Assembly (NCBI GenBank): GCA_035498555.1
Contig: DATKAB010000198.1
Coordinates: 1 to 48,620 of the forward strand
Reading direction: 5' to 3'
From: Candidatus Sulfotelmatobacter sp.
GTDB lineage: Bacteria > Eisenbacteria > RBG-16-71-46
Length of the DNA: 48,620 nucleotides
Shown: piece by piece, positions 1 to 33,786 of the stretch
Numbering within the stretch: the stretch's first letter is position 1
Layout: every line of letters begins with the position of its first letter
The notes under the pieces: generated by a model
Databases searched by the model: none
Told to the model about the DNA's origin: nothing
What the model saw: only the letters and a program-made list of their open reading frames with translations
Position numbers and translations under genes: made by a program

Positions 1-207
1 CGGACGGACGATCCGACGGAGCGCATCGACACCAAGATCCTCGAAACGGTCGTCGAGCTGGATGACCCCAAGGGGCTCGTGCCAGGGATGCTGGTCACCG
101 GCTACATCGAGGCCGGCAAGCCTGGCTCCGGTCAAGTTGGCCCGCTTGCCGAGGATCGGCCCTCGATCATGAACCAGGAGGCCAAGAGCAACGGGCGGAG
201 CAGGTGA
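1..207 (+). CDS. HlyD-family periplasmic adaptor, C-terminal end only
   Basis: Frame 1 is open from the window edge to TGA at 205-207 and gives 68 residues. The stretch around residues 9-40 (TKILETVVELDD, then GLVPGMLVTGYIEAG) matches the last beta-barrel strands of HlyD/RND-type membrane fusion proteins, where the conserved L.PGM.V...I sequence precedes the C-terminus. Such adaptors join an inner-membrane ABC or RND pump to an outer-membrane channel. The rest of the gene lies left of the window. The transporter gene that normally accompanies an adaptor is not found downstream; only a 32-codon open frame (210-308) without recognisable homology follows, so the cluster may have been cut here. 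Confidence 0.72.
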   Translation, partial: RTDDPTERIDTKILETVVELDDPKGLVPGMLVTGYIEAGKPGSGQVGPLAEDRPSIMNQEAKSNGRSR

Positions 208-375
208 AGATGAAGCCCCGGACGACTGCGAGATTGCGATTCTCCGTTACGTCGGACCTCTCATTCGAAGCGCCGCCTGCGGCACGATGGTCGAGGGCCG
301 AGGAATAGGTCGTTCTCAGCTCTGACGCGGTCGCCCCACCCGCCGTCCTGGCCGGGTGGGCAGCAACCTTCCAGA

Positions 376-422
376 TGTCCGCTTCTGACCATCGGTGTCC
401 ACTCGTGACCGCTGCTGTCCGC
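376..422. repeat. Five TGWCC pentamers at exact 10-bp spacing
   Basis: TGTCC at 376, TGACC at 386, TGTCC at 396, TGACC at 406 and TGTCC at 416 follow each other at exactly 10 bases. The TGTCC members extend to TGTCCGC or TGTCCAC. All sites lie on one face of the helix, which is typical of cooperative protein-binding arrays such as integrase arm sites, iterons or OmpR-type boxes. Confidence 0.65.
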
Positions 423-507
423 ACGGGGGTTCCTGATCGAGAACCGACGAGAACTACGCAAGACACGTAGCCTCACGTAAGTCCTTCGGAGCACTCGCCA
501 ACAATCG

Positions 508-535
508 GCCCCGCTCGAAGATGTTCGGGCGGGGC
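508..535. terminator. Strong hairpin, terminator-like
   Basis: GCCCCGC at 508-514 pairs with GCGGGGC at 529-535, and TCGAA (515-519) with TTCGG (524-528, one G-T pair) around a GATG loop. This 12-bp stem is followed by GATCGTTTG with only a short T run. It could terminate transcription arriving from the adaptor gene. It also sits between the two opposed pentamer arrays, so it may be part of a recombination site. Confidence 0.5.
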
Positions 536-549
536 GATCGTTTGAGACG

Positions 550-612
550 TGACACTGGCGGACACGAGCGGACACGTTGGGCCATTGAGGGGGTAGCCAA
601 AGGGTAGCCAAC
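550..612. repeat. Phased GGAC decamers plus GGGTAGCCAA repeat (arm-site-like, copy A)
   Basis: GACAC occurs at 551, 561 and 571, and a degenerate GGCC follows at 580. CATTGAGGGGG lies at 583-593, and GGGTAGCCAA is repeated at 591-600 and 602-611. The same arrangement, in identical register and without gaps, recurs at 2743-2795 beside tRNA-Arg. I read both as integrase arm-type sites or attachment-region remnants, by inference. Confidence 0.55.
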
Positions 613-681
613 TAGAGTGAATGCGCGCGGGGTACGGCCTCTCGGAGGCGCCGGCTGCGCCGTGCCGCGATCGGTGGTCCT

Positions 682-1656
682 TCAGGACACCCCGCTCAAG
701 GATGCCGGGTGAGACAAGTCGACGCCGGAGACCTTGACGACGGCCTGCCACGCGGCTTCCTGGCTGGCGTGATCGTAGAGGTGTGGCTGGCGCTGCACCT
801 CAATCGGGCCTGAGAATTTTCCTTGGGCCGAGGCGAAGAATTGCCCTGAGACATCGGTTCCGAACTCCGACGCCTGGAGGTACCGACGAGCCGCGGTCTC
901 CGGCGTCTGATTCATGCCGGGAATGAGGTTCACGATTGGGATCATCAGATACTTCAACGCCGGGCCAGCGTTTCGCACCGCCTTGGTGGCGGTCGCCCCA
1001 CCGGGCGAGACAGCGTACACGGCCATGCCGGAGGGTAGCCGGCGCGCCAGCGCCGCGACCCACCAAGCGATAATGAGCTTCGCGTCGGCGTACGTATTGT
1101 TGGGCACGTACTTCACGTTTGGCCCGTTGCGAATCAGGGCTTCAATGGCCGCGGTCCGGTCTCCCCGGAAGTACTTGGCCGCGAAGGCTGGCAGATCGGT
1201 GTAGCTGAACATCGGCACGCCCCCACGGGCAGGTTCCGCGCCGGCGATGACAATCCGCGCGTCGGGGCTTAGCAGGTTGGCGCGGCGCAACCCGACAGTC
1301 AGTTGATGATGGCCGATCAGCGGGGCCTGAGAAGCCTCGACGCCCGCCGCAGTGATCACGCGCTCCTTACCTGGGACCATCCCAGCATTGAGCAGGAGGA
1401 AATCGATCGGCTGACCCCGCCTGACCAGCTCGGCGAGGGCGGACTGAACGCTGGACGGCGAGTCCAGATCCAGCTCCAGCGGCGTGAGGACCTGTTTCTT
1501 GGTTTCAGCCGCGAGTTGAGCGGCTGTCTCCTGGACCCCGGCAAGGCTGCGGCCGGTGACGATGACCTGGCGGCAGCCCTTGGTGGCGAGCATGCTGGCT
1601 GCCGCATAGCCGAGCCCCGAGGTGGTGCCGGTGACGAGTGCGATCGAATGTTCCAT
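682..1656 (-). CDS. Short-chain dehydrogenase/reductase (SDR), atypical
   Basis: A 324-residue NAD(P)-dependent oxidoreductase of the SDR superfamily, with a Rossmann fold expected over the N-terminal half. Visible motifs are TGTTSGLG at residues 9-16 (dinucleotide-binding TGxxxGxG), LLLNAG at 87-92 (NAG motif), and the catalytic pair Tyr189/Lys193 in NNTYADAK. The usual catalytic Ser after strand 5 is not obvious: the region reads VIAGAEPARGG rather than ISS. At 324 residues it is longer than classical SDRs (about 250) and resembles retinol-dehydrogenase/protochlorophyllide-reductase-type members. It is transcribed divergently from the TetR gene at 1786, a pairing that usually means the regulator controls the oxidoreductase. 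The substrate is unknown. Confidence 0.88.
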   Translation of the reverse strand: MEHSIALVTGTTSGLGYAAASMLATKGCRQVIVTGRSLAGVQETAAQLAAETKKQVLTPLELDLDSPSSVQSALAELVRRGQPIDFLLLNAGMVPGKERVITAAGVEASQAPLIGHHQLTVGLRRANLLSPDARIVIAGAEPARGGVPMFSYTDLPAFAAKYFRGDRTAAIEALIRNGPNVKYVPNNTYADAKLIIAWWVAALARRLPSGMAVYAVSPGGATATKAVRNAGPALKYLMIPIVNLIPGMNQTPETAARRYLQASEFGTDVSGQFFASAQGKFSGPIEVQRQPHLYDHASQEAAWQAVVKVSGVDLSHPASLSGVS

Positions 1657-1785
1657 GGGCGACTCCGTGGTGAAGGAGGATGTCGGGTCGTGAGGCCCAG
1701 CGAGGCCATGGCCAGCTTGCCAATTTCGAACTGTTCAGTTACATTATGTGGGTGCGATGGCCACCGTCAAGGAGTTTCGAACTAA
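1657..1785. promoter_or_regulatory. SDR/tetR divergent control region with candidate operator
   Basis: This 129-bp gap separates the two divergent starts. AACTG-TT-CAGTT at 1729-1740 is a perfect inverted repeat of the size TetR proteins bind. TTTCGAACT occurs just before it (1724-1732) and again beside the tetR start (about 1776-1784). The gap is AT-richer than its surroundings. Assigning the site to the neighbouring TetR protein is inference from position. Confidence 0.5.
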
Positions 1786-2400
1786 ATGATTCAAAAGACC
1801 ATTAGGTCGCGGGGTCGACCGCGCAGCTTCGACGAGAGGGACGCGCTCGAAAAGGCGACCCAGGTGTTTTGGTCGAAGGGCTACGACGGAGTGACGATCG
1901 ACGATCTCGTCGCCGGGATGGGTGTGGGACGGCCGAGCCTCTATGCCGTCTTTGGGGACAAGCGGGCGATATTCTTGCGCGCCCTTAGGGCGTACGCAGA
2001 GGCGAAGGGCGCTCGCGCTGCCAAGGCGCTCCTCGCGCCGCAGTCTCTTCGCGACTCGCTCGCGGGCTTTCTGAGGCACGCCGTTGAAAGTGCGACCCAG
2101 AAAGGGTCCGCCCGGGGCTGCCTTGTGGTCTGCGTCGCGCCGCTTGTGAATGACGCTGAGGTTCAGCGGTTCCTGCAGAGCACGGTCGCGGGCGGCACGG
2201 CACTGGTGGAGCGCCGTCTCCGGGACGGGATCAGCGCGGGAGACATCCCGCCTGACTTTCCGGTAGCCGTGCGCGCGATCCAAATCACGGATTTTGCTCG
2301 TGGCCTGACCATGCGTGCGCGGATGGGCACGCCGCGCAAGACGCTCCTCAAGGATGCCGAGGCGGCGGCCGACTTGGTGCTCCAGCCGCGGCGCGTCTGA
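1786..2400 (+). CDS. TetR/AcrR-family transcriptional regulator
   Basis: A 204-residue regulator. Residues 8-60 form the TetR DNA-binding domain: RGRPRSFDERDALEKATQVF, then KGYDGVTIDDLVAGMGV and SLYAVFGDKRAIF, which is the helix-turn-helix followed by the canonical LY.HF.sK.-like end. Residues 60-204 are the helical ligand-binding domain. The segment RGCLVVCVA near residue 110 is typical of the subgroup whose domain carries GC(L/M)..N. Members of this subgroup usually repress an adjacent oxidoreductase or efflux gene in response to reactive small molecules. Divergent from the SDR gene. A cysteine pair (GCLVVC) could act as a redox or electrophile sensor, which is speculative. Confidence 0.9.
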   Translation: MIQKTIRSRGRPRSFDERDALEKATQVFWSKGYDGVTIDDLVAGMGVGRPSLYAVFGDKRAIFLRALRAYAEAKGARAAKALLAPQSLRDSLAGFLRHAVESATQKGSARGCLVVCVAPLVNDAEVQRFLQSTVAGGTALVERRLRDGISAGDIPPDFPVAVRAIQITDFARGLTMRARMGTPRKTLLKDAEAAADLVLQPRRV

Positions 2401-2541
2401 CGCGTTATCGGAGACGATTCACTGGGGAAGTGTCCACGAAAGCCGGGTCAAGCCCACTTGCGTCCATTCTCTTCGCGAATAATCCCGGCTAGTGCGGACA
2501 TGGGTTGAGCAGAGTTCTACTGGACCGCGTGCCTGCGTGAT

Positions 2542-2569
2542 TTGGCCTTCAAGCATTGTGCGCTATCCT
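2542..2569 (+). promoter_or_regulatory. Promoter for tRNA-Arg
   Basis: TTGGCC at 2542-2547 and TATCCT at 2564-2569 are separated by 16 bases. The -10 box ends 10 bases before the mature tRNA 5' end at 2580, as expected for a short tRNA leader. Confidence 0.6.
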
Positions 2570-2579
2570 CTTGCGTCAC

Positions 2580-2656
2580 GGCCCCGTAGCTCAGACGGAT
2601 AGAGCAGTGGTTTCCTAAACCGCGTGCCGCTGGTTCGACTCCAGCCGGGGCCACCA
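2580..2656 (+). tRNA. tRNA-Arg (anticodon CCU)
   Basis: A full cloverleaf is visible. Acceptor GGCCCCG (2580-2586) pairs with CGGGGCC (2646-2652). The D arm is GCTC...GAGC, the anticodon stem GTGGT/ACCGC encloses loop TTCCTAA with anticodon CCT at 2614-2616, and the T arm is GCTGG-TTCGACT-CCAGC. The discriminator base is A and CCA is encoded (2654-2656). It reads AGG codons. tRNA 3' ends are favoured integration sites, and an arm-site-like repeat lies 87 bases downstream. Confidence 0.96.
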
Positions 2657-2696
2657 CCTAAATCGCCGCAACCCACCGCGAAAGTGCGTCAGCCAG

Positions 2697-2724
2697 AGGG
2701 TGTTCCGGGTTCCCGGGGCACCCT
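2697..2724 (+). terminator. Hairpin 40 bases after tRNA-Arg
   Basis: AGGGTG...CACCCT and CCGGG-TT-CCCGG stack into one near-continuous stem of up to 13 pairs including two G-U pairs. It is well placed to end the tRNA transcript. The following sequence (CGCCGTTTGG) has only a short T run. Confidence 0.5.
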
Positions 2725-2742
2725 CGCCGTTTGGCCGGAAAT

Positions 2743-2795
2743 GGACAGGAATGGACTGGAGAGGACATTGAGGGGGAGACCAAGGGGAGACCTGC
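2743..2795. repeat. Phased GGAC decamers beside tRNA-Arg (arm-site-like, copy B)
   Basis: GGAC lies at 2743, 2753 and 2763 (exact 10-bp spacing). It is followed by CATTGAGGGGG at 2766-2776 and a doubled (A)GACC-type motif (GAGACC at 2776-2781, again at 2787-2792). Over about 50 bases it aligns without gaps to 560-612, with roughly two thirds of positions identical and the 11-base core perfect. Confidence 0.55.
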
Positions 2796-3026
2796 GCGGC
2801 GGCAACTCCTTCGGGCCTATTGGGACCTCGATGCGGTCGGCGGCGACGCACACGCCGCCCCTGATGACGTAGCACTCAACGAAGTGGTTGCCCCAGTACC
2901 TCGTGCCCTCCTTAGGCTTCCTGCGGCCCTCGTCCTGGTAGATCCGACCGCGGAGCTGTCCCATGCGACGCGCATCTGCCCCCAGTGTTCTTCACCTTCC
3001 AGCGCACCAGGACGGGGGAACAAGCG

Positions 3027-3281
3027 ATGCGATGGAATCCGAGCACCATCGGCCCGAGACTCGCCCGCGCGGCGGTGCTCGTCGCGGCCGGACTTTCGAC
3101 CGTGGCGGGGGCGGCGAGCGCCGAGGCGGTTCGTGGTGAGAGCCCGACCGCTTTCATGACGGTTGTGGGGCGAAGTTTGTTGACGCCGTCGCTGACTCCG
3201 CAAGCGCCTACAGCACGAACGGGATCAGCGCGCGCACGCGCTCGCGATAACGCGGGTACGCCTCGGGGAAGTGGCGCGTGA
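3027..3281 (+). pseudogene. Truncated secreted protein (signal peptide only)
   Basis: ATG at 3027 has a GGGGGAA ribosome-binding site 6-7 bases upstream. It is followed by a clear signal peptide: MRWNPSTIGPRLARAAVLVA, then AGLSTVAGAASA with an ASA-E cleavage site. After about 45 residues the frame loses protein character and runs 74 bases into the 3' end of the convergent methyltransferase gene, stopping at 3281. I read it as the 5' stump of an exported-protein gene cut by a rearrangement. A short genuine exported peptide cannot be excluded. Confidence 0.45.
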
Positions 3282-3771
3282 GGAGCTGCTCCTCCGCCTG
3301 GAGCTTGAGCCAGAGGCTGATCAAGAGGACTCCGCAGAACAGGAACTGCGAGAGCCATGCGTGCAGCATGGCTGTGCCGAGCGCCATGACCAGGATGCCC
3401 GTGTAAATCGGGTGGCGGACGTAGCGATACGGACCTCGCTCGATCAGCTCGTGATCCTGCTTGAACGTGACGGTGCCGCTCCAATTACGCCCGAGCGCGA
3501 AGCGGGCCCACAGCGTGACCCACAAACCCACGAGCACCACGGCCGCGGCCAGCCACTCGATGGACGGGGTGGGTGTCCACAACTGGCGAGCTCCGATGAG
3601 TTGTCGGTTGCGCGCAATCCAGTAACCGACCGCGAGCACCACGATCATCGACGATCGACCGAAGCTCCAACTTCGCTCCACCGTGCGCTTCACGAACAGC
3701 GCGGCGATGAACCAGGTGACGGCGAACAGGGCCCAACTGGCGAAAACCACGATCGAGGGCAGATCAAGCAT
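3208..3771 (-). CDS. Isoprenylcysteine carboxyl methyltransferase (ICMT)-like membrane protein
   Basis: A 187-residue integral membrane methyltransferase of the ICMT/phospholipid methyltransferase (PEMT) superfamily. Three or four hydrophobic helices fill the first 100 residues. They are followed by the family signature RGPYRYVRHPIYTG, which binds S-adenosylmethionine, then helices and the C-terminal EEQLL...FPEAYPRYRERV. That last sequence is the conserved EE...F...Y..Y motif, ending in LIP. The start is placed at MLDLPSIV (3771). The frame is open further upstream, but that extension has no protein character and overlaps another remnant. Bacterial members are functionally diverse and no substrate can be assigned. 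Confidence 0.88.
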   Translation of the reverse strand: MLDLPSIVVFASWALFAVTWFIAALFVKRTVERSWSFGRSSMIVVLAVGYWIARNRQLIGARQLWTPTPSIEWLAAAVVLVGLWVTLWARFALGRNWSGTVTFKQDHELIERGPYRYVRHPIYTGILVMALGTAMLHAWLSQFLFCGVLLISLWLKLQAEEQLLTRHFPEAYPRYRERVRALIPFVL

Positions 3772-3862
3772 GTTACGATCGTAGCGGGCGACCTGTAGAA
3801 CACTCAACCGAGCCGAGCCCGAAATCGCCTGACTCGCGCCCGCGCTTCCGCCCGAGCTGGAG

Positions 3863-4135
3863 ATGCGCGCCCTGCGCCGGACGCGTGGGGCGCTGGCCCT
3901 GCAGAGGGGGCTCTTCGCCCTCGCGATCACGTTCACCGCGCTGGCCTTCGCGATCCGGATCTCGTACGAGGACCATCGAATCACGAGGCTCCGCCTGCGC
4001 GAGGTCGGCGCGCTCGGCCCCGGCCGGCACCTGGTTCACCTCGGCGACGGGGCGCGTGTCCCGCCCGGGGTCTACCTGCTACGGCTGGTGCAGGGGAACG
4101 AGGTCCGTCACGCGCGGGCGGTGGTGCTGCAATGA
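3863..4135 (+). pseudogene. 3' remnant of a FlgD-like C-terminal sorting domain
   Basis: The last ~50 residues (LREVGALGPGRHLVHLGDG, then ARVPPGVYLLRLVQG and RAVVLQ) match the C-terminal beta domain found on the large secreted proteins in this window (compare GRVNPGVYFARV...RLVRLQ at the end of the 7408-9819 product). Upstream the frame (RGALALQRGLFALAITFTAL) keeps only a hint of the NPSRG strand and appears frameshifted. No signal peptide or propeller precedes it. It is probably the tail of a deleted exported-protein gene. Confidence 0.6.
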
Positions 4136-4387: not shown

Positions 4388-6277
4388 CTACTTCAGCGGA
4401 TGCCGCCAGACCCCGCTGCCATAGGTTCCGGCGAACAGGCCTGTGCCGGTGACCGCGAGGGCGTGCACCTCGAACCGCGATACACCGCCTTGGAGCGCCA
4501 CCCAACCGGCGCCGTCGTCAGTCGAGCAGAACACGCCGCGGCCGTAGGTCGCGGCGAAAAGCCTGGTGCCGCTGACGGCCAGATCCAGGACTAGTTTGTC
4601 GGAGAGGCCATTGCTGGCCGCGGACCAACTGGCGCCGTTGTTGGTCGAGCAGAATACTCCGCCAAGCGTTCCCGCGAACAACTGCCCGTCGCACACAACA
4701 AGGGAATAGACGAAGCTGCTCCCGAGGCCGGCATTAACCGCGCGCCAGCTGGCGCCATTGTCGGTAGACCGCAGCAGTCCGTTTCCCAAGTCCGCAACGA
4801 ACAGTATCCCGTCCTTCATTGCAATCGCGCCGACGGGATTGCCGGTTGCACCTTTCACTGCGATCCAACTGCTGCCGTTGTTAACTGAGCGAAACACGCC
4901 GCCCGCGTCCGTCCCCGCGAACAGGGTCGTGCCGTTGACGCTGAGTGCAGTGACATACGCGCCCGCCAACTGTGCGCCGCTGACGTCCGTCCAATGGCTG
5001 CCGTTGTCGGTTGAACGGAAGATCCCCGCTTGGTACGTCCCGGCGAAAATGGTCGTGCCACTCAGGGAGAGCCCAGTGATCCAAACGTTCGTCAGCCCAC
5101 TGCTGACCGCCTCCCAATGGGCGCCTTCATCGGACGAACGGAATACGCCGCCGTCCAATTGACCGGCGAAGATGGTCGTTCCGCTCACCGCCAGGGCGGT
5201 GACTTTTGTAACCACAATGCCGCTGCTGGCCGCGATCCAATTCGCTCCGGCGTCGGTCGAGCGGAATACTCCGCTGACATATGTCCCGGCGAAAAGGCTC
5301 GTGCCGGTGGCGGCAAGGGCATGGACGTCCGTCGTCGTCAAGCCGGCGCTTGCGGCAGTCCAAGTGCTCCCGTTGTCGGTCGAGCGGAACACGCCGCTGC
5401 CTCCGGTTCCAGCAAATAGCTCTGTACCGCTCGGGGCGAGGGCGCGAATACGTGGGTCCGGCAGACCGGCGCCGATCGCCACCCAGGTGTCACCGTTGTC
5501 GGTCGAGCGGAACAACCCATGCCAAGTCCCAGCGAAAAGGGTGGTGCCGCTGACGGCCAGCGAGGTAACTGACGACACAGCCCAATCCGTCAACCCGACA
5601 TTAGCCGCCGTCCAGTGGGCGCCGCCGTCGGTCGACCGGTATACGCCGCCGTAGGTCCCGGCGAACAGGCTGGTGCCGCTGACGGCCAGGGCCTGGACCC
5701 GCTCGTCGATCAGGCCCGTATCCGCTGCGGTCCAACTGGCGCCATCATCGGTCGAGCGGAATACGCCGTCGTGGTAGGTCCCGGCGAACAAGCTGGTGCC
5801 GCTCACGGCCAGTGCCTGGACCCAAGTACCCGTCAGACCGGTGCCAGTGGGGGTCCAGCTGACACCATCGTCGGTGGATCGATACACCGCCCCTCCTGCT
5901 CCCGCGAGGATGCTGCTGCCGCTAACCGAAAGCACGCCGACCCCAGCGTTCTGCAGACCATTGTTGGCTGCGGTCCAGCTGTCGCCATCGTCGGTCGAGC
6001 GGAAGACACCGGCGCCCGATACCGCGGCGATGATGCTGGTGCCGTGGACGGTCAGGCTCAGAACTTCTCCGCCGCCGGGGCCGGTGGTCTGTGTCCATTC
6101 GCCGGGCGGCACCGGCTCCCGCGGCCCCTCCGGGGCCGTGACCAGGCCGCTGACCGAGCGCTTGCCGCAGCCCATCATCAAGGGCAGGACGATGAGAAGT
6201 GCGCACGCTACGACGCATGGATTCGGGGCATGATTGCCCGATCGCAGCCTGAGACGGAGGGGAGACAGATTGTGCAT
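4388..6277 (-). CDS. Asp-box (BNR) repeat beta-propeller lipoprotein
   Basis: A 629-residue exported lipoprotein. A hydrophobic segment ends in the lipobox PLMMGC, with Cys37 as the likely lipidated residue. From about residue 75 the chain is a run of roughly 43-residue repeats, each with an Asp-box of the form (F/Y)RSTD(D/N)G..W followed by T.A..GL and then V.ALAVSGT.LFAGT. I count 13 Asp-boxes, and the final repeat ends in GVWRHPLK without one. Asp-boxes mark sialidase- and sortilin-type propeller blades; here they predict one or two propellers on the cell surface. No catalytic residues are recognisable. Unlike the other large secreted proteins here, it has no FlgD-like C-terminal domain, consistent with lipid anchoring instead of C-terminal sorting. 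Confidence 0.9.
   Translation of the reverse strand: MHNLSPLRLRLRSGNHAPNPCVVACALLIVLPLMMGCGKRSVSGLVTAPEGPREPVPPGEWTQTTGPGGGEVLSLTVHGTSIIAAVSGAGVFRSTDDGDSWTAANNGLQNAGVGVLSVSGSSILAGAGGAVYRSTDDGVSWTPTGTGLTGTWVQALAVSGTSLFAGTYHDGVFRSTDDGASWTAADTGLIDERVQALAVSGTSLFAGTYGGVYRSTDGGAHWTAANVGLTDWAVSSVTSLAVSGTTLFAGTWHGLFRSTDNGDTWVAIGAGLPDPRIRALAPSGTELFAGTGGSGVFRSTDNGSTWTAASAGLTTTDVHALAATGTSLFAGTYVSGVFRSTDAGANWIAASSGIVVTKVTALAVSGTTIFAGQLDGGVFRSSDEGAHWEAVSSGLTNVWITGLSLSGTTIFAGTYQAGIFRSTDNGSHWTDVSGAQLAGAYVTALSVNGTTLFAGTDAGGVFRSVNNGSSWIAVKGATGNPVGAIAMKDGILFVADLGNGLLRSTDNGASWRAVNAGLGSSFVYSLVVCDGQLFAGTLGGVFCSTNNGASWSAASNGLSDKLVLDLAVSGTRLFAATYGRGVFCSTDDGAGWVALQGGVSRFEVHALAVTGTGLFAGTYGSGVWRHPLK
4490..6020 (-). 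repeat. Tandem ~126-129-bp coding repeats
   Basis: The Asp-box repeats are visible at DNA level. GTCGGTCGAGCGGAA-like segments recur about every 126-129 bases (for example near 5263, 5375, 5500, 5748 and 5990). The nucleotide similarity between units suggests recent expansion or gene conversion within the gene. Confidence 0.7.
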
Positions 6278-6905: not shown

Positions 6906-7407
6906 AATCTGAATATGCACGGCACATCCACAGGCAACCGAAGACACACGTAATATCGTCCGGATCGCTCGGGATTGCCAGTCAATTCGACGTGAAGTCC
7001 CCAACGACCGGATTCACTTGCGACTAGCGCCGTGAATGTGCTCCCGAGGCGCTCGGCAGGCCTCGGCCCGGCGGGGCCCGTTCCCGATCGCTCGAGCGGG
7101 CGACTCGGTACATCGAACTCTGCCGGGCCCGCACCCGCGCGCCGCGGCGGGCGTGGACAGTGGGTGGCGACTACCGATGTCCGCGCAGCCACTCCGACTG
7201 TCGTTCGAGCGCTTCCGTGCCCTTTCCCCAGCGCCGCAAGTATCCGCGCTGCTCAAACAGGAAACACTCGACGTTCTCCCAACTCGCGGGGCCGGGCGAT
7301 CGACGCCGACCCGCCAGACGTTCGCAGAGCCCGCCTCGGACGTACGGAGCAACGGTGGGCCGCCGGGTCTCGGCGCGCCCGTGGAACTTCGATCGAGGGA
7401 GCTTCCC
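6906..7407. other. Intergenic region upstream of the first propeller gene
   Basis: No protein gene is supported here. The plus-strand frame of the following gene stays open back to 7036, but that part lacks protein character and the clear signal peptide begins at 7408. The segment 6910-7030 is AT-richer and precedes the minus-strand terminator at 6878-6905, so it may encode a short RNA. On the minus strand a TTGACT occurs near 6980-6985, but I see no convincing -10 box at normal spacing. Confidence 0.4.
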
Positions 7408-9819
7408 ATGCGCGCGGTTCTCAAATTCACGCTTCCGCTAGCGCTGGCCCTGACGCCGGGGGAGTCGGTGGCGCAGAGCGTCCAGAGCAATCTCTGGGTG
7501 ACCAACGGCCCCGTATACGCGATCGCAAGAATGGCCGGCGAGGTCTACATCGGCGGCGCCTTCACCCAGGTCGGACCGCCGATCGGCGGATTCGCGACGA
7601 TCGACGGCGCAACGGGCGCCATCCAGACGCCGTACGCCGAGGTAGACGGCATTGTGAACGCCTCGATTCCGGACGGCAGCGGAGGTCGCTTCATCGGAGG
7701 TCGCTTCAGCCACGTGCAGGGCCAGCCTCACAGTTGCTTGGCGCATCTGGACCCGAGCGGGAATGTCACCTCCTGGGACGCTGGCGTGTTCGACGCGAGC
7801 GACGGCGTTCGCGCGCTCGCCATCGATCCGTTCAATCCCACCGTGCTCTACGTGGGCGGCGCGTTCACCTACATCGGCCTGGTGTCCTATTCGAACCTCG
7901 TCGCGGTCGACGTCAATACCGCCGCTCTCCTTCCCTGGTCGGCGGGGACCGACGGCAAGGTGAACGCGCTGTGGGCCTACGACGGGACGATTTACGCTGC
8001 CGGCGCCTTCTTCTCGGCCGACGGAGCGCAGCGACATTCGCTCGCCGCCTTCGACGCGTTCAGCAGCCTGCGTTCGTGGAATCCCGACGTTAACGGTCAG
8101 GTGTACGCGATCGCCGGTTCGGTCGCTCCTTTGACTCATGCGGTCACGCTCTGGGTGGGAGGGGACTTCTCACAGATTGCCGGCCAACAGCACTACACTC
8201 TCGCCTCGATCCCCGCGAGCAGTTCGACTCCGAACACCTGGAACGCCAGCACCAATGGCACAGTGAAAGCCATCGCGCTCGGCTACTTCCGAAACAACGT
8301 GGTGTCGGTCTATGTCGGAGGCACGTTCAGCCAGGCGGGCGGGCACTCCCTTCCCCGACTGGCCCAGCTCGACGCGTTCAGCGGGACGCCTTCCACCACG
8401 TTCACTCCCGGGCCCAGCGACGAGGTGGACGCGTTGCTCCTCGATGGTGGGACGCTGTACGCGGGAGGCAGGTTCGACGTGATCGGCCTGACCGCACATG
8501 GGCGTATAGCGGCCCTCGATGCGGCGACGGGCGTGGCGACCGACTGGAACCCGATGTTGAACGCGCCCGTCAATTGCGTCGACGAATCCGGTGGCACCGT
8601 CTGGGCCGGAGGCAGTTTCTCGAGCGCCGGGGGCGTCAACTGCTCGAACCTGGTGGCACTCGATGCCACGACCGGCGTCGCGACCTGGACCCCGGGAGTC
8701 AACGGGGAAGTCGATGCGCTCGCCACCGACGGCTCGACCATGTATGTGGGCGGCGCATTCACCTTCGTCGGCATCCAAGGTCGTGGCTTCGGTGCGGCGT
8801 TCGATTCCAATCACAACGACACCGGCTGGAATCCACGAGCCGATGGCACGATCCATTCAGTGCTCCCGTATGGCGGTTCGGTGTATGTGGGCGGCAGCTT
8901 CCTGACGCTCGACAATAACCAGCACATCCACCTCGGACAGGTCGACCCGAGCAGCGGAGCGGCCGGCCCGGAATTCCCGCCGGTCCTCGGCGACGTTCTT
9001 GCCATGGTCGTTCACTCGAACCGGCTCTACGTCGGCGGGCAATTCGGAACCGTGGGCTCGAGTCCGCGTGGCTCGGGGGCGGACTTCGATCTGTCCACGC
9101 ACGCTCTGGGAACGTGGGACCCGCGCGCCACCAACGGCGTCGTTCCGGCTCCGATCTATGCGATCGCAGAAGACGGCAACACACTGATCATCGGCGGCGA
9201 CTTCTACCAACTGGGTGGCGGCACCCGCTTCAACCTCGGCCAGGTGGACGATGTCGCGGGATCGGCCACGGCGTGGGCCGCGCCGGTCACGGGCCAGTTC
9301 TATGCGCTCCAGGGATCGGGATCGAGGCTGTACCTGGGCGGCACGAGCGGCCTTTCGGCGCTCGATATCGGCACACTCGACCTGGTCGCCTGGGACCCGC
9401 AGGTGGACGGATACGTCCACGCCCTTGCGGTGGCCAGTGATCGCTTATACGTGGGAGGGAGCTTCTACTCGGCGGGCGGAACCGCGTACTCGAATCTCGC
9501 CACGTATTCAGGAGGCGTGACCGCTGTCAGCGCGACGCGCGATGTCGCGAGGGGGCTCAAGCTCTCCGCCAACCCCTCGCGTGGCCCGGTAACGATTGGC
9601 TTCGCGCTGCCCGCGCGCGCCACAACCGACGCCGGGATCTACGATCTTTCCGGGCGCCTCGTACGCCGCCTTCGCTCCTCCGTGCTCGAGGCCGGCGAGC
9701 AGAGAGTCACCTGGGACGGCCGCGACGAGTCCGGCGGGCGCGTGAACCCGGGCGTCTACTTCGCCCGGGTGAGCGCGGGCTCGTTTCAGAGCGAGACCCG
9801 ACTCGTCAGACTGCAGTGA
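7408..9819 (+). CDS. Secreted YVGGxF (DUF5122-like) propeller protein with FlgD-type C-terminal domain, paralogue 1
   Basis: An 803-residue exported protein. The start at ATG 7408 has GAGGGA about eight bases upstream and a signal peptide (MRAVLKFTLPLALALTPGES with cleavage near VAQS). The body has about 14 blades with the motif (V/L)Y.GG.F, typically followed by LA.LDA.TG....W.P..NG.V.AL. This is the style of DUF5122/delta-60 propeller repeats. Residues from about 720 form a FlgD-like Ig domain (SANPSRGPVTIGFALPA, WDGRDESGGRVNPGVYFARV, ending RLVRLQ) of the kind used as a C-terminal sorting signal in FCB-group bacteria. Two paralogues lie at 17294 and 22662. The likely role is a surface or released binding protein; no enzymatic residues are seen. 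Confidence 0.9.
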   Translation: MRAVLKFTLPLALALTPGESVAQSVQSNLWVTNGPVYAIARMAGEVYIGGAFTQVGPPIGGFATIDGATGAIQTPYAEVDGIVNASIPDGSGGRFIGGRFSHVQGQPHSCLAHLDPSGNVTSWDAGVFDASDGVRALAIDPFNPTVLYVGGAFTYIGLVSYSNLVAVDVNTAALLPWSAGTDGKVNALWAYDGTIYAAGAFFSADGAQRHSLAAFDAFSSLRSWNPDVNGQVYAIAGSVAPLTHAVTLWVGGDFSQIAGQQHYTLASIPASSSTPNTWNASTNGTVKAIALGYFRNNVVSVYVGGTFSQAGGHSLPRLAQLDAFSGTPSTTFTPGPSDEVDALLLDGGTLYAGGRFDVIGLTAHGRIAALDAATGVATDWNPMLNAPVNCVDESGGTVWAGGSFSSAGGVNCSNLVALDATTGVATWTPGVNGEVDALATDGSTMYVGGAFTFVGIQGRGFGAAFDSNHNDTGWNPRADGTIHSVLPYGGSVYVGGSFLTLDNNQHIHLGQVDPSSGAAGPEFPPVLGDVLAMVVHSNRLYVGGQFGTVGSSPRGSGADFDLSTHALGTWDPRATNGVVPAPIYAIAEDGNTLIIGGDFYQLGGGTRFNLGQVDDVAGSATAWAAPVTGQFYALQGSGSRLYLGGTSGLSALDIGTLDLVAWDPQVDGYVHALAVASDRLYVGGSFYSAGGTAYSNLATYSGGVTAVSATRDVARGLKLSANPSRGPVTIGFALPARATTDAGIYDLSGRLVRRLRSSVLEAGEQRVTWDGRDESGGRVNPGVYFARVSAGSFQSETRLVRLQ

Positions 9820-17293: not shown

Positions 17294-19747
17294 ATGCGCG
17301 CCGAACGCTCTACCATCCTGCTCGCTCTACTGATTCTGGTCCCGGGGCCCGCCCGTGCCCAGGTTGCCCAGAGCAACCTGTGGGTCGCGAATGGAGCCGT
17401 GAACGCGATCGCGCTCGCGGGCAACACCGTCTACATGGGTGGCGAGTTCACGCGCCTCGGCCCGCCGACTGGCGGCTTCGTGACGCTCGACGAGACGACC
17501 GGCGCGGTGGTAGCGCCCGGCGCCGGCGGAGGGGTCGCGGGCACGGTGATGTGCTCACTCGTTGATGCCGGCGGCGGCCGCTTTGTCGGCGGTTCGTTCC
17601 AGTTCGTCCAGGGCCAGAGCCACAGCGGGCTCGCCCACTTCGATTCCAACGGCAACTTGCTTCCCTGGAGTCCCAGCGTCGGCAACGGCTACGTCTATGC
17701 CATGGCCATCGACTATTCCAATCCGAACGTCCTTTACATTGGCGGCGTCTTCAGTTCGGTCAACGGAGTCACGCGCAACTCCCTGGCGGCGATCGACGTC
17801 ACGACCGGCGCGCTGCTCGATTGGAACCCGGGCACCAACGGCCTGGTCAACGCGATGGTCGCCTACAACGGGGTGGTCTACGTCGGCGGATCGTTCACGA
17901 TGGCCGGGGGCTACACGCGAAACGATCTGGCGGCGGTGGATGGGACCGGCGCCGTGACCGGCTGGGATCCCAATTCCAACGGCGACGTCAACGCGCTCGC
18001 GCTCTCGGCAAATCCCTTCACTCACCTGCCGACGATTTGGATTGGCGGACTGTTCACGAGCTTGCAGGGGCAGGCGCGCTATTCGATCGGCTGCGTGGAC
18101 GTGACGGGGACGCCCCTGAGCTGGAGCCCGAACGCCGACCACGCCGTCCGCACGATCGTGCTCGGCTACTCGCACAATTTCGTCAACGCGGTTTACCTGG
18201 GAGGCACGTTCGACCTGGTCGCGGGGCAGTCGCGGCAGTATCTCGCCGAGGTCGACCCCTCGACCGGCGTCGCCTCCTCGACCTTCAATCCGTCGCCCGA
18301 TCAACCCGTGTCGTCGATCGCCCTCGACGGGACCTCGGTGTACGTCGGAGGCTCGTTCACCCGCATCGGCGGAGTCTCCCGGCAGTATCTGGCCGGGCTC
18401 GACGCGACTTCCGGCGCCGTGTCCTCGTGGGATCCAAGCCCGGATGCGGGCGTGGCCTGCCTGGACGCGTGGAGCGGGACGGTGCGCGTCGGCGGCGCGT
18501 TCGGAAGTCTGGGCGGCGTAACCCGCAATCATCTCGCGGCACTGGACGCCACGACCGGCATGCCGACATCGTGGGATCCAAATGCGAGTGGCCCGATCAA
18601 CGCGCTGACTGTCAACGGTGGCACGCTCTACGCGGGCGGCCAGTTCGCGACGATCGTTGGTCAGAACCGCGGAAACGGTGCGGCATTCAACAGCGGCGGC
18701 ACCCTGCTGTCGTGGGATCCTCGCGCTACCGGCCCGATCAACGCGCTCGCGGGATTCGGCGGCTCGATCTACGTGGGCGGCGGATTTCTGAGCGCCGGCG
18801 GACCGGGAAACCCCATGCTGGCGCGGCTCGATCCTTCTTCGGGAAACAGCGTCGCGCCGCTTCCCACGCCCGATCGGCCGGTCCACGCGCTGATGGTTCG
18901 CGATTCGGTCATGTACGTCGGCGGCGAGTTCCAGCGCCTGAATGGGTTCGTCAGGAGTGGCGCGGGAGCGTTCGACCTCAAGAACTTTGCGGTCACCAAC
19001 TGGGATCCCGAGGTTTTGGGCGCGAGTCAGGGGCCGGTCACCATGGTCGATGCTCTGGCGCAGGTCGGCAACCTGATCGCCTTGGGCGGTGACTTCCTTG
19101 AAGTCCACTTCGCGATGCACACCAACCTGGCCCTGGTGGACCCGGTCGTCGGGTTCGTGGCCGGCTGGTATTCGCCGGTCTATCAGCCAGTCCTCGCGCT
19201 GTTGGACCTCGGCAACACACTCTGTGCTGGTGGGTACTTCGTCAGCTCGGGTCCGGGCGCGACCGGCCCACTCGCGGCGATCGATCTGACCAGCCTTGCC
19301 GCCCGTCCCTGGAACACCGGGATGACGGGCGAGGTTCATTCACTCGCGGCCGGCGCCGGCGCGCTCTACGTCGGCGGCTCGCAATCGCCGTCGGCGGGAG
19401 GGTGGCCGCACGAGAACTTCGCAGCGTTCTCGGGCGGCGTCACGGCGGTGAATGAAGAGCCCGTCGCGCCACTTCACTGCGCGATTCATCTCTCGTCGAA
19501 TCCTTCGCGCGGAAGTGTGACGTTCAGTTTCGCGTTGCCCGGGCGCACCGCGACCGAGGTCACCGTGTTCGACGCGGCCGGCCGAGTGGTGCGAAGCCTC
19601 CACGCCGGCGACTTGCCGGCCGGCGAGCTACATATAATGTGGGACGGCCGCGACGATACCGGGCGTTTTGCGCGATCGGGGGTCTATTTCGTGCGCATTC
19701 GTGGGGCGAATCTCGATCTCGAGGCCAAACTCATTCACCTCCACTGA
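17294..19747 (+). CDS. Secreted YVGGxF (DUF5122-like) propeller protein with FlgD-type C-terminal domain, paralogue 2
   Basis: An 817-residue exported protein. Signal peptide MRAERSTILLALLILVPGPA with ARA-Q cleavage, then QSNLWVANGAVNAIALAGNT, almost the same opening as paralogues 1 and 3. The chain has about 14 blades with VYVGGSFT..GG..R..LA.LDA.TG....WDP. The C-terminal domain (SSNPSRGSVTFSFALPGRTA, WDGRDDTGRFARSGVYFVRI, KLIHLH) is of the FlgD/T9SS type. A GGAGAA ribosome-binding site lies six bases upstream of ATG 17294. Its order of blades and spacer lengths follow paralogue 3 closely, pointing to duplication within this locus. The function is presumably binding or a structural role at the surface. 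Confidence 0.9.
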   Translation: MRAERSTILLALLILVPGPARAQVAQSNLWVANGAVNAIALAGNTVYMGGEFTRLGPPTGGFVTLDETTGAVVAPGAGGGVAGTVMCSLVDAGGGRFVGGSFQFVQGQSHSGLAHFDSNGNLLPWSPSVGNGYVYAMAIDYSNPNVLYIGGVFSSVNGVTRNSLAAIDVTTGALLDWNPGTNGLVNAMVAYNGVVYVGGSFTMAGGYTRNDLAAVDGTGAVTGWDPNSNGDVNALALSANPFTHLPTIWIGGLFTSLQGQARYSIGCVDVTGTPLSWSPNADHAVRTIVLGYSHNFVNAVYLGGTFDLVAGQSRQYLAEVDPSTGVASSTFNPSPDQPVSSIALDGTSVYVGGSFTRIGGVSRQYLAGLDATSGAVSSWDPSPDAGVACLDAWSGTVRVGGAFGSLGGVTRNHLAALDATTGMPTSWDPNASGPINALTVNGGTLYAGGQFATIVGQNRGNGAAFNSGGTLLSWDPRATGPINALAGFGGSIYVGGGFLSAGGPGNPMLARLDPSSGNSVAPLPTPDRPVHALMVRDSVMYVGGEFQRLNGFVRSGAGAFDLKNFAVTNWDPEVLGASQGPVTMVDALAQVGNLIALGGDFLEVHFAMHTNLALVDPVVGFVAGWYSPVYQPVLALLDLGNTLCAGGYFVSSGPGATGPLAAIDLTSLAARPWNTGMTGEVHSLAAGAGALYVGGSQSPSAGGWPHENFAAFSGGVTAVNEEPVAPLHCAIHLSSNPSRGSVTFSFALPGRTATEVTVFDAAGRVVRSLHAGDLPAGELHIMWDGRDDTGRFARSGVYFVRIRGANLDLEAKLIHLH

Positions 19748-22661: not shown

Positions 22662-25097
22662 ATGGGAACCACGACGCTTGCCGCATCGCTTGCCGCACTG
22701 GCGATCGTCGCCGCACCCGCCCGCGCGCAGAACGTCCAGAGCAACCTGTGGGTGACCAATGGCATCGTGAACGCGATCGCGGTCTCGGGCAACACGGTCT
22801 ATATCGGCGGCGCGTTCACGCGACTCGGTCCGCCGATTGGCGGATTCGTCAGGGTCGACGGCACTACGGGCGCGGTGCTGCCGCCGGCGTACGGCGTCGC
22901 CGGCACGATCACCTGCTCGATTCCCGATGGCAGCGGCGGTCACTTCGTCGCCGGCAGCTTTGACGTTCAGGGCTTCTCGGGCTGGCCGATCGTCCACTTC
23001 GACTCCAGTGGACACGGGGTGTACCTGAACTCGTACTCGATCGATGGCACGGTGTACGCGATGGCGATCGATCCGCTCAACCCCGGCGTGCTCTATCTCG
23101 GCGGGGCGTTCAGTCACGTGGACGGCGCGATCCGCACCAATCTCGCCGCATTCGATCTCACCACCGGCTACCTCACCAGCTGGACTCCCAGCACCAACGG
23201 AACGGTTCGCACTCTGACCGCCTACAACGGAGTGATCTACATCGGCGGACACTTTAGCCAGGCGAACAGCGCGGCCCGCGGCAACCTGGCCGCGGTGGAC
23301 GCGTCCGGCGCACTCACCGCCTGGGACCCCGAGGCCAGTTCCGATGTCTGGACGATGGCCCTTTCGGTCTTGCCGATCACTCACGCGATCACGGTCTGGC
23401 TCGGCGGCCAGTTCATCAGCCTTCAGGGCCAGCCGCGCTACTCGATCGGCGCCGTGGACGGCGCGGGCACCCCGCTCGACTGGAGCCCGAACGCCGGTCA
23501 CATCGTGAAGACCATGGCCCTGGGCTATTCCCGCAACCGGGTGGTGGCGGTCTACATCGGCGGCACCTTCGACCAGATCGCCGGGCACTCGGTGCCGTAT
23601 CTGGCGGAGCTCGACGCCTCCGGAGCGGTCGTGACGGGATTCGCTCCGTCGCCCGATCAGGAGGTGGACGCCATCTGGCTCGACGGCTCGACGCTCTACG
23701 CGGGCGGCGAGTTCACGAACATGGGGGGCGTCTCGCGGCAGTTTGCCGCGTCGGTCGACGCGAGCACCGGCGCGGTGACGAGCTGGAACCCAAGCCCCAA
23801 CGGGTTCGTGACCTGCCTCGATGCCTCGGGTGGCAACGTCGATCTCGGCGGCTCGTTCGGGAGCCTCGGCGGCGTCACGCGCAATCATCTCGCCGCGCTC
23901 GACGCCTCGACCGGCCTGCCGACGTCGTGGGATCCGGATGTGGACGGAGTCGTCAACGCGCTTGCGGTCAGCAACGGCATGCTGTTCGCGGCGGGCGCTT
24001 TCAGCAGCGTCGGCGGGCAAACGCGCGGCAACGGCGCGGCCTTCGACGCGAACGGCGCGCTCACTCCGTGGGATCCCCGTGCGAATGGCGGCATCAACGC
24101 GCTGCTCCCGCTCGGCGGCTCGATCTACGCGGGTGGAGCCTTTTTCAGCGTGGCGGGACAGCCTCGCGGCCGGCTCGCTCAGCTCGACGCGATCACCGGA
24201 GACCCCTGGCCCGCGATCCCCAGCTCGGATGGACCGGTCTACGCGCTCGCGATCCACGATTCGATTGTCTACGTGGGCGGAATGTTTCAGACCTTTGGAG
24301 GAATGGCGCGGCACGGGGCCGCCGCGTTCGCCGTCTACTACAACAACGTGATGGCCTGGCAACCCAGTGTCACCGGCGGACCGCAGGGACCGCCCGCGGT
24401 GTATTGCATCGCACCGCTCACCTCGACCCTGCTGATCGGTGGGAGCTTCGACGCGGTGTTTGGATCGACCCGCCATGGGATCGCCGAGGTGGACTACACC
24501 CTCGGATCCCCGACTCCGTGGACTGCCTCCCCGTATCTTCCGGTGCGAGCATTCCTGCCGCTCGGGAACACGCTCTTCATCGGCGGTGACTTCTCCACTT
24601 TCAGTCCCGGATTCGGCGGACCGCTTGTCGCCGTGGATACTCCCACCATGGCCAATCTTCCATGGGGCTCCCCAATCGAGGGACAGGTCCGCTGCCTCGC
24701 CGCCGGCGCGGGGCGGCTCTACGCCGGTGGGATCTGGTTCGGGGCCGGCGGCTGGCCGCATGAGTGCCTGGCGGGGCTGTCGGGAGGCTTCGCGGGGGTG
24801 GGAGAGGAGCCGATCGAGCGACGCCCAGGCGCGCTTCGACTCTCCGCGAATCCGTCGCGGGGTCTGGTCTCGTTCCGATTCGCGATACCCGAACGCGGGC
24901 CGGCGAAGGCCGGCATCTACGACCTCGCGGGTAGGCGGGTGCGCGAGGTGTACGACGGCGAGCTCCCGGGCGGTGAGCAATCGCTCTCATGGGATGGCCG
25001 CGACGATGCCGGCCGACCGGCCCGATCCGGCGTCTACTTCGTGCGGGTGAACGGCGCGGGGGTTCAACTCGAAGCCAGGCTGGTGCATCTGCGCTGA
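22662..25097 (+). CDS. Secreted YVGGxF (DUF5122-like) propeller protein with FlgD-type C-terminal domain, paralogue 3
   Basis: An 811-residue exported protein. Signal peptide (TLAASLAALAIVAAPARAQ), then VQSNLWVTNGIVNAIAVSGN and the blade motif VYIGGAFTRLGPPIGGF. Blades repeat to about residue 715; one reads GNVDLGGSFGSLGGVTRNHL, nearly identical to VRVGGAFGSLGGVTRNHL in paralogue 2. The C-terminal domain has SANPSRGLVSFRFAIPE, WDGRDDAGRPARSGVYFVRV and RLVHLR. The start at 22662 follows GGGGAG by about seven bases. It is preceded by 106 intergenic bases and followed by the selenoprotein candidate. It is likely a surface or secreted binding protein. Confidence 0.9.
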   Translation: MGTTTLAASLAALAIVAAPARAQNVQSNLWVTNGIVNAIAVSGNTVYIGGAFTRLGPPIGGFVRVDGTTGAVLPPAYGVAGTITCSIPDGSGGHFVAGSFDVQGFSGWPIVHFDSSGHGVYLNSYSIDGTVYAMAIDPLNPGVLYLGGAFSHVDGAIRTNLAAFDLTTGYLTSWTPSTNGTVRTLTAYNGVIYIGGHFSQANSAARGNLAAVDASGALTAWDPEASSDVWTMALSVLPITHAITVWLGGQFISLQGQPRYSIGAVDGAGTPLDWSPNAGHIVKTMALGYSRNRVVAVYIGGTFDQIAGHSVPYLAELDASGAVVTGFAPSPDQEVDAIWLDGSTLYAGGEFTNMGGVSRQFAASVDASTGAVTSWNPSPNGFVTCLDASGGNVDLGGSFGSLGGVTRNHLAALDASTGLPTSWDPDVDGVVNALAVSNGMLFAAGAFSSVGGQTRGNGAAFDANGALTPWDPRANGGINALLPLGGSIYAGGAFFSVAGQPRGRLAQLDAITGDPWPAIPSSDGPVYALAIHDSIVYVGGMFQTFGGMARHGAAAFAVYYNNVMAWQPSVTGGPQGPPAVYCIAPLTSTLLIGGSFDAVFGSTRHGIAEVDYTLGSPTPWTASPYLPVRAFLPLGNTLFIGGDFSTFSPGFGGPLVAVDTPTMANLPWGSPIEGQVRCLAAGAGRLYAGGIWFGAGGWPHECLAGLSGGFAGVGEEPIERRPGALRLSANPSRGLVSFRFAIPERGPAKAGIYDLAGRRVREVYDGELPGGEQSLSWDGRDDAGRPARSGVYFVRVNGAGVQLEARLVHLR

Positions 25098-33715: not shown

Positions 33716-33786
33716 CACGAAATCCTCCACAGGGCGCGGCAAGGTCGAGCTGCGATGCGAACGCGAACCACGCTAGCCGGCTCCTG

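Follow-up and report, generated by a model that had tools for sequence, protein, structure and literature searches.

Short repeats lying at a fixed distance from the crossover core are the arm-type sites of tyrosine integrases. The anticodon loop is reportedly one of the sublocations of integration sites that Williams described in 2002, and Tycheposons of marine cyanobacteria are tRNA-carrying elements equipped with their own tyrosine recombinase. The Islander islands, as counted in their published account, include 3760 with 3' fragments and 159 with 5' fragments (PMC4383910). For certain phages it is reported that the loss of a tRNA is offset by a tRNA borne on the element (PMC10865867). RdfS is described as binding att DNA with one molecule per 10 bp, and BldC as forming filaments with one turn per protomer (PMC11963761).

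Here we describe a locus of Candidatus Sulfotelmatobacter sp. in which two copies of a phased motif occur 2.2 kb apart. The window analysed, 48,620 nucleotides in length, is a whole contig (position 1 is contig base 1) of the 3.8-Mb genome G000, which is assembled in 219 contigs. Overall, sequence comparison makes it probable that tRNA-targeted tyrosine-integrase elements of Candidatus Eisenbacteria have this motif as the P'-side arm of their attachment site, and we read the segment 437-2618 as an integrase-less cassette. A first-pass annotation, made from the sequence alone, had paired 2743-2795 with 560-612, and realignment reproduced what it had seen: the alignment is gap-free (35/53 identical), the GGAC units share the same 10-bp phase, CATTGAGGGGG is identical in both copies, and each copy has a doubled repeat, which differs after this shared core (GGGTAGCCAAAGGGTAGCC in the 560-612 copy versus GGGGAGACCAAGGGGAGACC in the 2743-2795 copy). 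Raw identity over 53 nt was discarded as evidence, because more than 100 other gap-free 53-mer pairs within the window also reach 35/53, mostly inside paralogous beta-propeller genes. The rare feature of the two copies is the phasing of the decamers, not their raw identity. With at most one mismatch, GGACANNNNNGGACNNNNNNGG gave 8 matches in the window as against 1.4 expected, a number reached by 0 of 100 shuffles, and a related pattern with at most three mismatches matched, in the whole 3.8-Mb genome, only at these window arrays. GC content of 1-4000 is slightly below that of the rest of the contig and is not informative. As for the nearby truncated genes that had been mentioned, there is one, the open frame 1-207, but it is cut by the contig start, which is an assembly edge.

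Like Islander islands, as these are described, the Eisenbacteria elements have a tyrosine integrase, a tRNA that is split and repaired and a displaced fragment at the far end, and their anticodon-loop crossover is among the main Islander subsites; in contrast, Islander needs an integrase while the window segments have none, and its fragments are mostly 3' whereas displaced 5' halves are commoner in the Eisenbacteria elements (PMC4383910). Phages with tRNA-dependent lysogeny are reported to have a short core inside the tRNA, arm-type sites and an element tRNA of the same isotype, all of which is alike, but they have an integrase, whereas the Eisenbacteria segments measure 1-7 kb and carry non-phage cargo where examined (PMC10865867). 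An integrase-free 5.3-kb segment in G001:C18 (L070:8907-14333) contains, 23 nt in from its right end, a tRNA-Arg(CCT) that is complete but divergent, and this tRNA of its own parallels those phages (PMC10865867). The decamers fit a factor of the RdfS/BldC kind, as one protomer per 10 bp would suit their 10-bp phasing; RdfS is described as having no consensus motif and a known gene, whereas the decamers form a clear motif with no candidate protein identified (PMC11963761). CALINs and hitcher elements, in their published description, are integrase-less cassette arrays mobilisable in trans, which the Eisenbacteria segments may resemble, but the latter are bounded by split tRNA genes and arm modules (PMC11389934). 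A full-text literature search for Eisenbacteria with integrase and tRNA returned nothing, and broader searches by title and abstract returned nothing describing the system. With the arm reading, a bare repeat becomes a signature by which attachment sites can be searched for in an uncultured phylum.

The right copy lies downstream of a tRNA-Arg gene, in the following arrangement.

2505-2579, plus strand: tRNA promoter region, of a type that also ends integrase-less segments (right side) in relatives, by clustering of 21 upstream regions
2580-2656, plus strand: tRNA-Arg(CCT), by ARAGORN and Rfam
2612-2618, plus strand: crossover core TTCCTAA, the anticodon loop, where displaced 5' halves end and 3' halves begin in relatives
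2696-2725, plus strand: terminator-like hairpin of the right arm module (-29.1 kcal/mol, z -4.9)
2743-2767, plus strand: phased decamers of the right arm module (score 14/15), at +124 from the core, an offset equal in G003
2773-2792, plus strand: doublet GGGGAGACCAAGGGGAGACC, putative arm-type sites of a different integrase, at +154 from the core

The tRNA ends 86 bases before 2743. The comparison set consisted of 47 genomes of the class; where the integrase of a relative could be matched to a named record, that relative belongs to Candidatus Eisenbacteria. A pattern search found the closest motif copies in two relatives. In G003, the motif stands behind tRNA-Arg(CCT), with the end of a 341-aa tyrosine integrase (Pfam PF00589) immediately before that tRNA; 4.2 kb downstream, the 3' half of the tRNA is repeated exactly. 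In G001, the motif follows the 5' half of a tRNA-Arg interrupted at the anticodon. The proposal that the motif is an att/arm site of tRNA-targeted integrase elements thus gains support from G003, where integrase, tRNA, module and 3'-half duplicate occur together. The exact motif had no match in the viral and genome collections, and looser decamer and doublet patterns were needed. Over the 222 nt from tRNA to doublet, G000 matches G003 at 90% identity; shortly beyond the doublet the similarity is lost. When the tRNA and its flank were searched against the class by BLAST, many 5' halves ended at query position 57 and several 3' halves started at 51, which places the crossover in the shared 7 bp TTCCTAA of the anticodon loop and not at the tRNA 3' end, the target proposed earlier. 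We suggest that these elements cross over in tRNA anticodon loops, mainly that of tRNA-Arg(CCT).

As in G003, the right copy is of the kind that carries a tRNA 3' half of its own, and we read the copy together with this half as the probable left end of a separate element running rightward. No far end of that element was recognisable in the contig, no displaced tRNA 3' half for it was found in the window, and the matches listed for G000 were the tRNA itself and less similar tRNA-like sequences, with no near-exact displaced 3' half among them.

The same arm module was seen at 17 ends, in the common order of core, hairpin, decamer array and doublet. These ends were hand-picked because they looked right and are a description, not a test; from relatives there are 9 tRNA-Arg ends and 2 at full tRNA-Ser genes, and the rest are a Ser half, a Cys half, two degenerate cores (Ser-like and Lys-like) and the two ends of the window. 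The array is offset from the core by 94-134 and the doublet mostly by 144-162, with outliers at 133 and 175; at the L080, L152 and L033 ends no doublet of at least 6 bp was picked, imperfect GTAGC-type or GGATCA repeats being visible. The comparisons show a fixed module order at near-fixed spacing from the crossover, abutting displaced tRNA halves or repaired tRNAs. Displaced tRNA-Arg(CCT) 5' halves of the window's family were followed by an array (score at least 12) in 8 of 11 cases, while 0.8% of 20,000 random 190-nt control segments passed this threshold; the other three, and both 5' halves from outside the family, were without an array. One further row, G018_C250, was left out of the count: the script called it a half, but it is a complete tRNA carrying an inserted base. 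Full tRNA-Arg(CCT) genes of the family (n=10, G000 included) reached 12 downstream in two genomes, G000 and G003; G009 scored 11 with a degenerate copy and the remaining 7 scored 9 or less.

Class-wide, GGWCAN5GGWCAN5GGWC gave 31 matches in the 47 genomes, merged to 20 arrays, as compared to 3 matches in the backward control. The tRNA link proposed for the motif held for part of these: 7 of the 20 arrays follow a tRNA or recognisable tRNA half, two have degenerate Ser- or Lys-like cores and one is an inverted array in the window, but 10 are without a tRNA link, two examples being a tandem repeat in G011 and a long decamer array in G028. Besides tRNA-Arg, genes or halves of tRNA-Ser and tRNA-Cys can precede the module. 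The doublets fit putative arm-type sites, to which the integrase N-terminal domain would bind. Within G000 the exact GGAGACC doublet occurs a single time and the exact GGTAGCC doublet once, another copy of the latter being at the integrase 3' end of G003. GGTAGCC doublets had 9 matches versus 19 in the backward control; doublets alone are therefore not discriminating, and only their position counts. One element of G016 has GTAGCC doublets at both ends and an integrase remnant; a matching P-side doublet was found there and across two contigs of G001, and none in G000. A displaced tRNA fragment at the far end was seen in the relatives G003, G001, G016 and G019. The arm module would mark element ends even after loss of both integrase and tRNA fragment. 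A small factor, probably a recombination directionality factor, may polymerise on the decamers with one protomer per helical turn, and the hairpin would keep transcription of the tRNA out of the element.

Relatives of the G003 integrase were detected in 18 of the 47 class genomes (E 1e-12), and more distant members exist, one of them in a Latescibacterota chromosome. At their 3' ends these integrases often adjoin a tRNA gene or the 3' half of one (Arg, Ser, Lys, Cys, Val). Near the integrase 3' end, a direct doublet measuring 9 bp or more was present at 9 of 28 loci (30 minus two where contig or match stopped early) as against 5% of random segments. In agreement with the earlier statement that the integrase is missing here, none of the three tyrosine-recombinase domain matches in G000 belongs to the G003 family at E 1e-12, and tblastn with 30 integrases revealed no significant integrase trace in the window (best E 0.018). 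Integrase C-terminal remnants lie beside tRNA ends in G016:C160, G019:C100 and G002:C76, and an intact integrase with both matching arms on one element was seen on no contig examined. In the viral_contigs record L228, the integrase has behind it a tRNA-Arg 5' half with the same core at its end; since this record is filed as viral, some carriers of the integrase may be phages.

The left copy and the segment to its right have the following features.

377-420, minus strand: five GGWCA decamers in phase, forming an inverted array that stops 9 nt short of the left core
430-436, plus strand: predicted crossover core TTCCTGA, its position matching the tRNA anticodon loop of G001:C23
508-535, plus strand: terminator-like hairpin of the left arm module (-25.5 kcal/mol, z -4.2), in the same order in relatives
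550-589, plus strand: phased decamers of the left module, with TGACA, GGACA, GGACA and GGCCA units (array score 14/15)
591-611, plus strand: doublet GGGTAGCCAAAGGGTAGCCAA, putative integrase arm-type sites, at +154 from the core
664-2439, no strand: extent of plasmid-alignable DNA, 79-82% identical to Paraburkholderia/Methylovirgula plasmids
682-1656, minus strand: SDR oxidoreductase, cargo (Pfam adh_short)
1786-2400, plus strand: TetR regulator, cargo, divergent to the SDR gene (Pfam TetR_N)

Core 430-436 sits in an imperfect palindrome, GGTTC-CTGATCGA-GAACC (428-445). The distance from this core to a shared AAGTCNTTCGGAGCACTCGCCAA block is 42 nt in the window and in G001:C23 alike, and the decamers follow at +113, again identical in G001:C23. 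The stretch 479-611 gave a 75% alignment (E 6e-18) with the end beside the tRNA-Arg 5' half of G001:C23. The first-pass annotation had delimited an element at 208-2579; the left segment is corrected here to 437-2618, in the order of arm module, TetR-SDR, tRNA promoter with 5' half, and crossover, and the right copy starts a different element. The inverted array, a third array which that annotation did not mention, was absent from the int-side ends of relatives on by-eye reading and from every other end inspected, and the flank 330-480 gave no convincing homologue. A hairpin at 334-365 lies beyond it, and a 22-bp stretch of it is 95% identical to the G019:C100 array in the opposite sense.

The SDR gene was found in 1 of the 47 class genomes, G000 only, and is 79-81% identical on three proteobacterial plasmids; the TetR gene is 70-78% identical to TetR adjoining the plasmid SDRs. 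The divergent TetR-SDR order is the same in two annotated plasmid records, the third record being without a gene table. The restriction of the SDR gene to one class genome, together with the 79-82% DNA identity to proteobacterial plasmids, which spans 664-2439 at the widest, indicates a foreign cargo, and DNA of foreign origin takes up the greater part of the stretch from arm module to tRNA promoter. Cargo of foreign origin, one criterion for a genomic island, is thus seen in the TetR-SDR pair.

The upstream regions of 21 tRNA-Arg genes or halves formed two main groups, with few outside both. One promoter group mostly accompanies an integrase or integrase remnants. The other, to which the G000 region belongs, follows an arm module in G000, at two places in G001 and in G019, with 2-7 kb of integrase-free unrelated DNA between. 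This recurrence of integrase-free segments in three genomes favours the reading of 437-2618 as an integrase-less cassette, which may be moved by an integrase in trans, or may formerly have been moved by one in cis. On the left of core 430-436 there is the inverted array and no tRNA half, which counts against a cassette. The second promoter type also precedes the outer 5' half of G003, and a filtered search found no array in the 9.7 kb upstream, so that 2505-2579 may still be an untouched native host promoter. Going further, we propose, tentatively and at about one chance in three, that the tRNA-Arg(CCT) anticodon loop is an integron-like platform into which integrase-less cassettes are inserted in tandem by trans-acting integrases. 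Each cassette would be small and consist of an arm module of the standard kind, unrelated cargo of one to a few genes, and a promoter joined to a tRNA 5' half, and each insertion would rebuild the tRNA from the incoming promoter and half. The arm-module reading is rated much more probable than this full platform. If the segments are mobilised in trans, this would be a cassette system built on a split tRNA, and it would explain the settling of small foreign gene pairs such as TetR-SDR.

The main rival is ordinary decay, in which two autonomous elements had their integrases deleted in situ and the 2.2-kb segment was never an integrase-less unit. Such decay happens, as the integrase C-terminal remnants beside tRNA ends in G016, G019 and G002 indicate, and the far end of the right element is lost. 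However, the window is without an integrase trace, integrase-free segments with the same two end kinds recur in G001 and G019, and the promoter type of these recurring segments is the second one, which differs from that of integrase-linked ends; we consider decay doubtful, at roughly one chance in three. That the two motifs are the paired ends of one element, as the first-pass annotation had it, would agree with the foreign TetR-SDR pair being flanked by both copies, but the copies have the same orientation, different doublets and each its own core at +154, and the core at 2612 precedes the right copy instead of following it. The paired ends were rejected on orientation, doublet and core spacing and are very improbable.

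A vertically conserved host feature, with a terminator and a protein-binding array downstream of tRNA-Arg, could account for the 90% identity of G000 and G003 across tRNA and module. Yet 8 of the 10 full family tRNA-Arg(CCT) genes score below 12 downstream, the module is also found at tRNA-Ser and tRNA-Cys genes or halves and beside displaced halves, and the identity ends just past the doublet, all of which makes this explanation exceedingly improbable. We give equally little credence to an assembly chimera of proteobacterial and Eisenbacteria DNA: a 1.8-kb stretch is 79-82% identical to proteobacterial plasmids in an assembly of 219 contigs, but it is flanked by an Eisenbacteria arm module on one side and a tRNA promoter of Eisenbacteria type on the other, and relatives carry other cargo in the same position.

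Compared with the flanks of relatives, the window beyond the tRNA and arm stretches has no matches except in the beta-propeller family and a few others. It encodes three large beta-propeller proteins, paralogous to one another, at 7036-9819, 17294-19747 and 22662-25097, with the FlgD_ig tail confirmed for the first; in G001 and G003, relatives of these proteins are located within tRNA-Arg elements or next to them. An integrase-free 2.9-kb segment of G001:C18 (L071:1101-2164) carries an MqsA-like antitoxin, and the adjoining open frame may be its toxin. The element cargo of G003:C23 (L068:7827-10864) comprises a sulfide dehydrogenase-related flavoprotein, an ArsR-rhodanese fusion and a methyltransferase. 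On the minus strand of the window, 4388-6277 is an open frame built of a 123-bp repeat, and 31772-33742 encodes a beta-lactamase-family domain fused to an aspartyl-protease-like domain.
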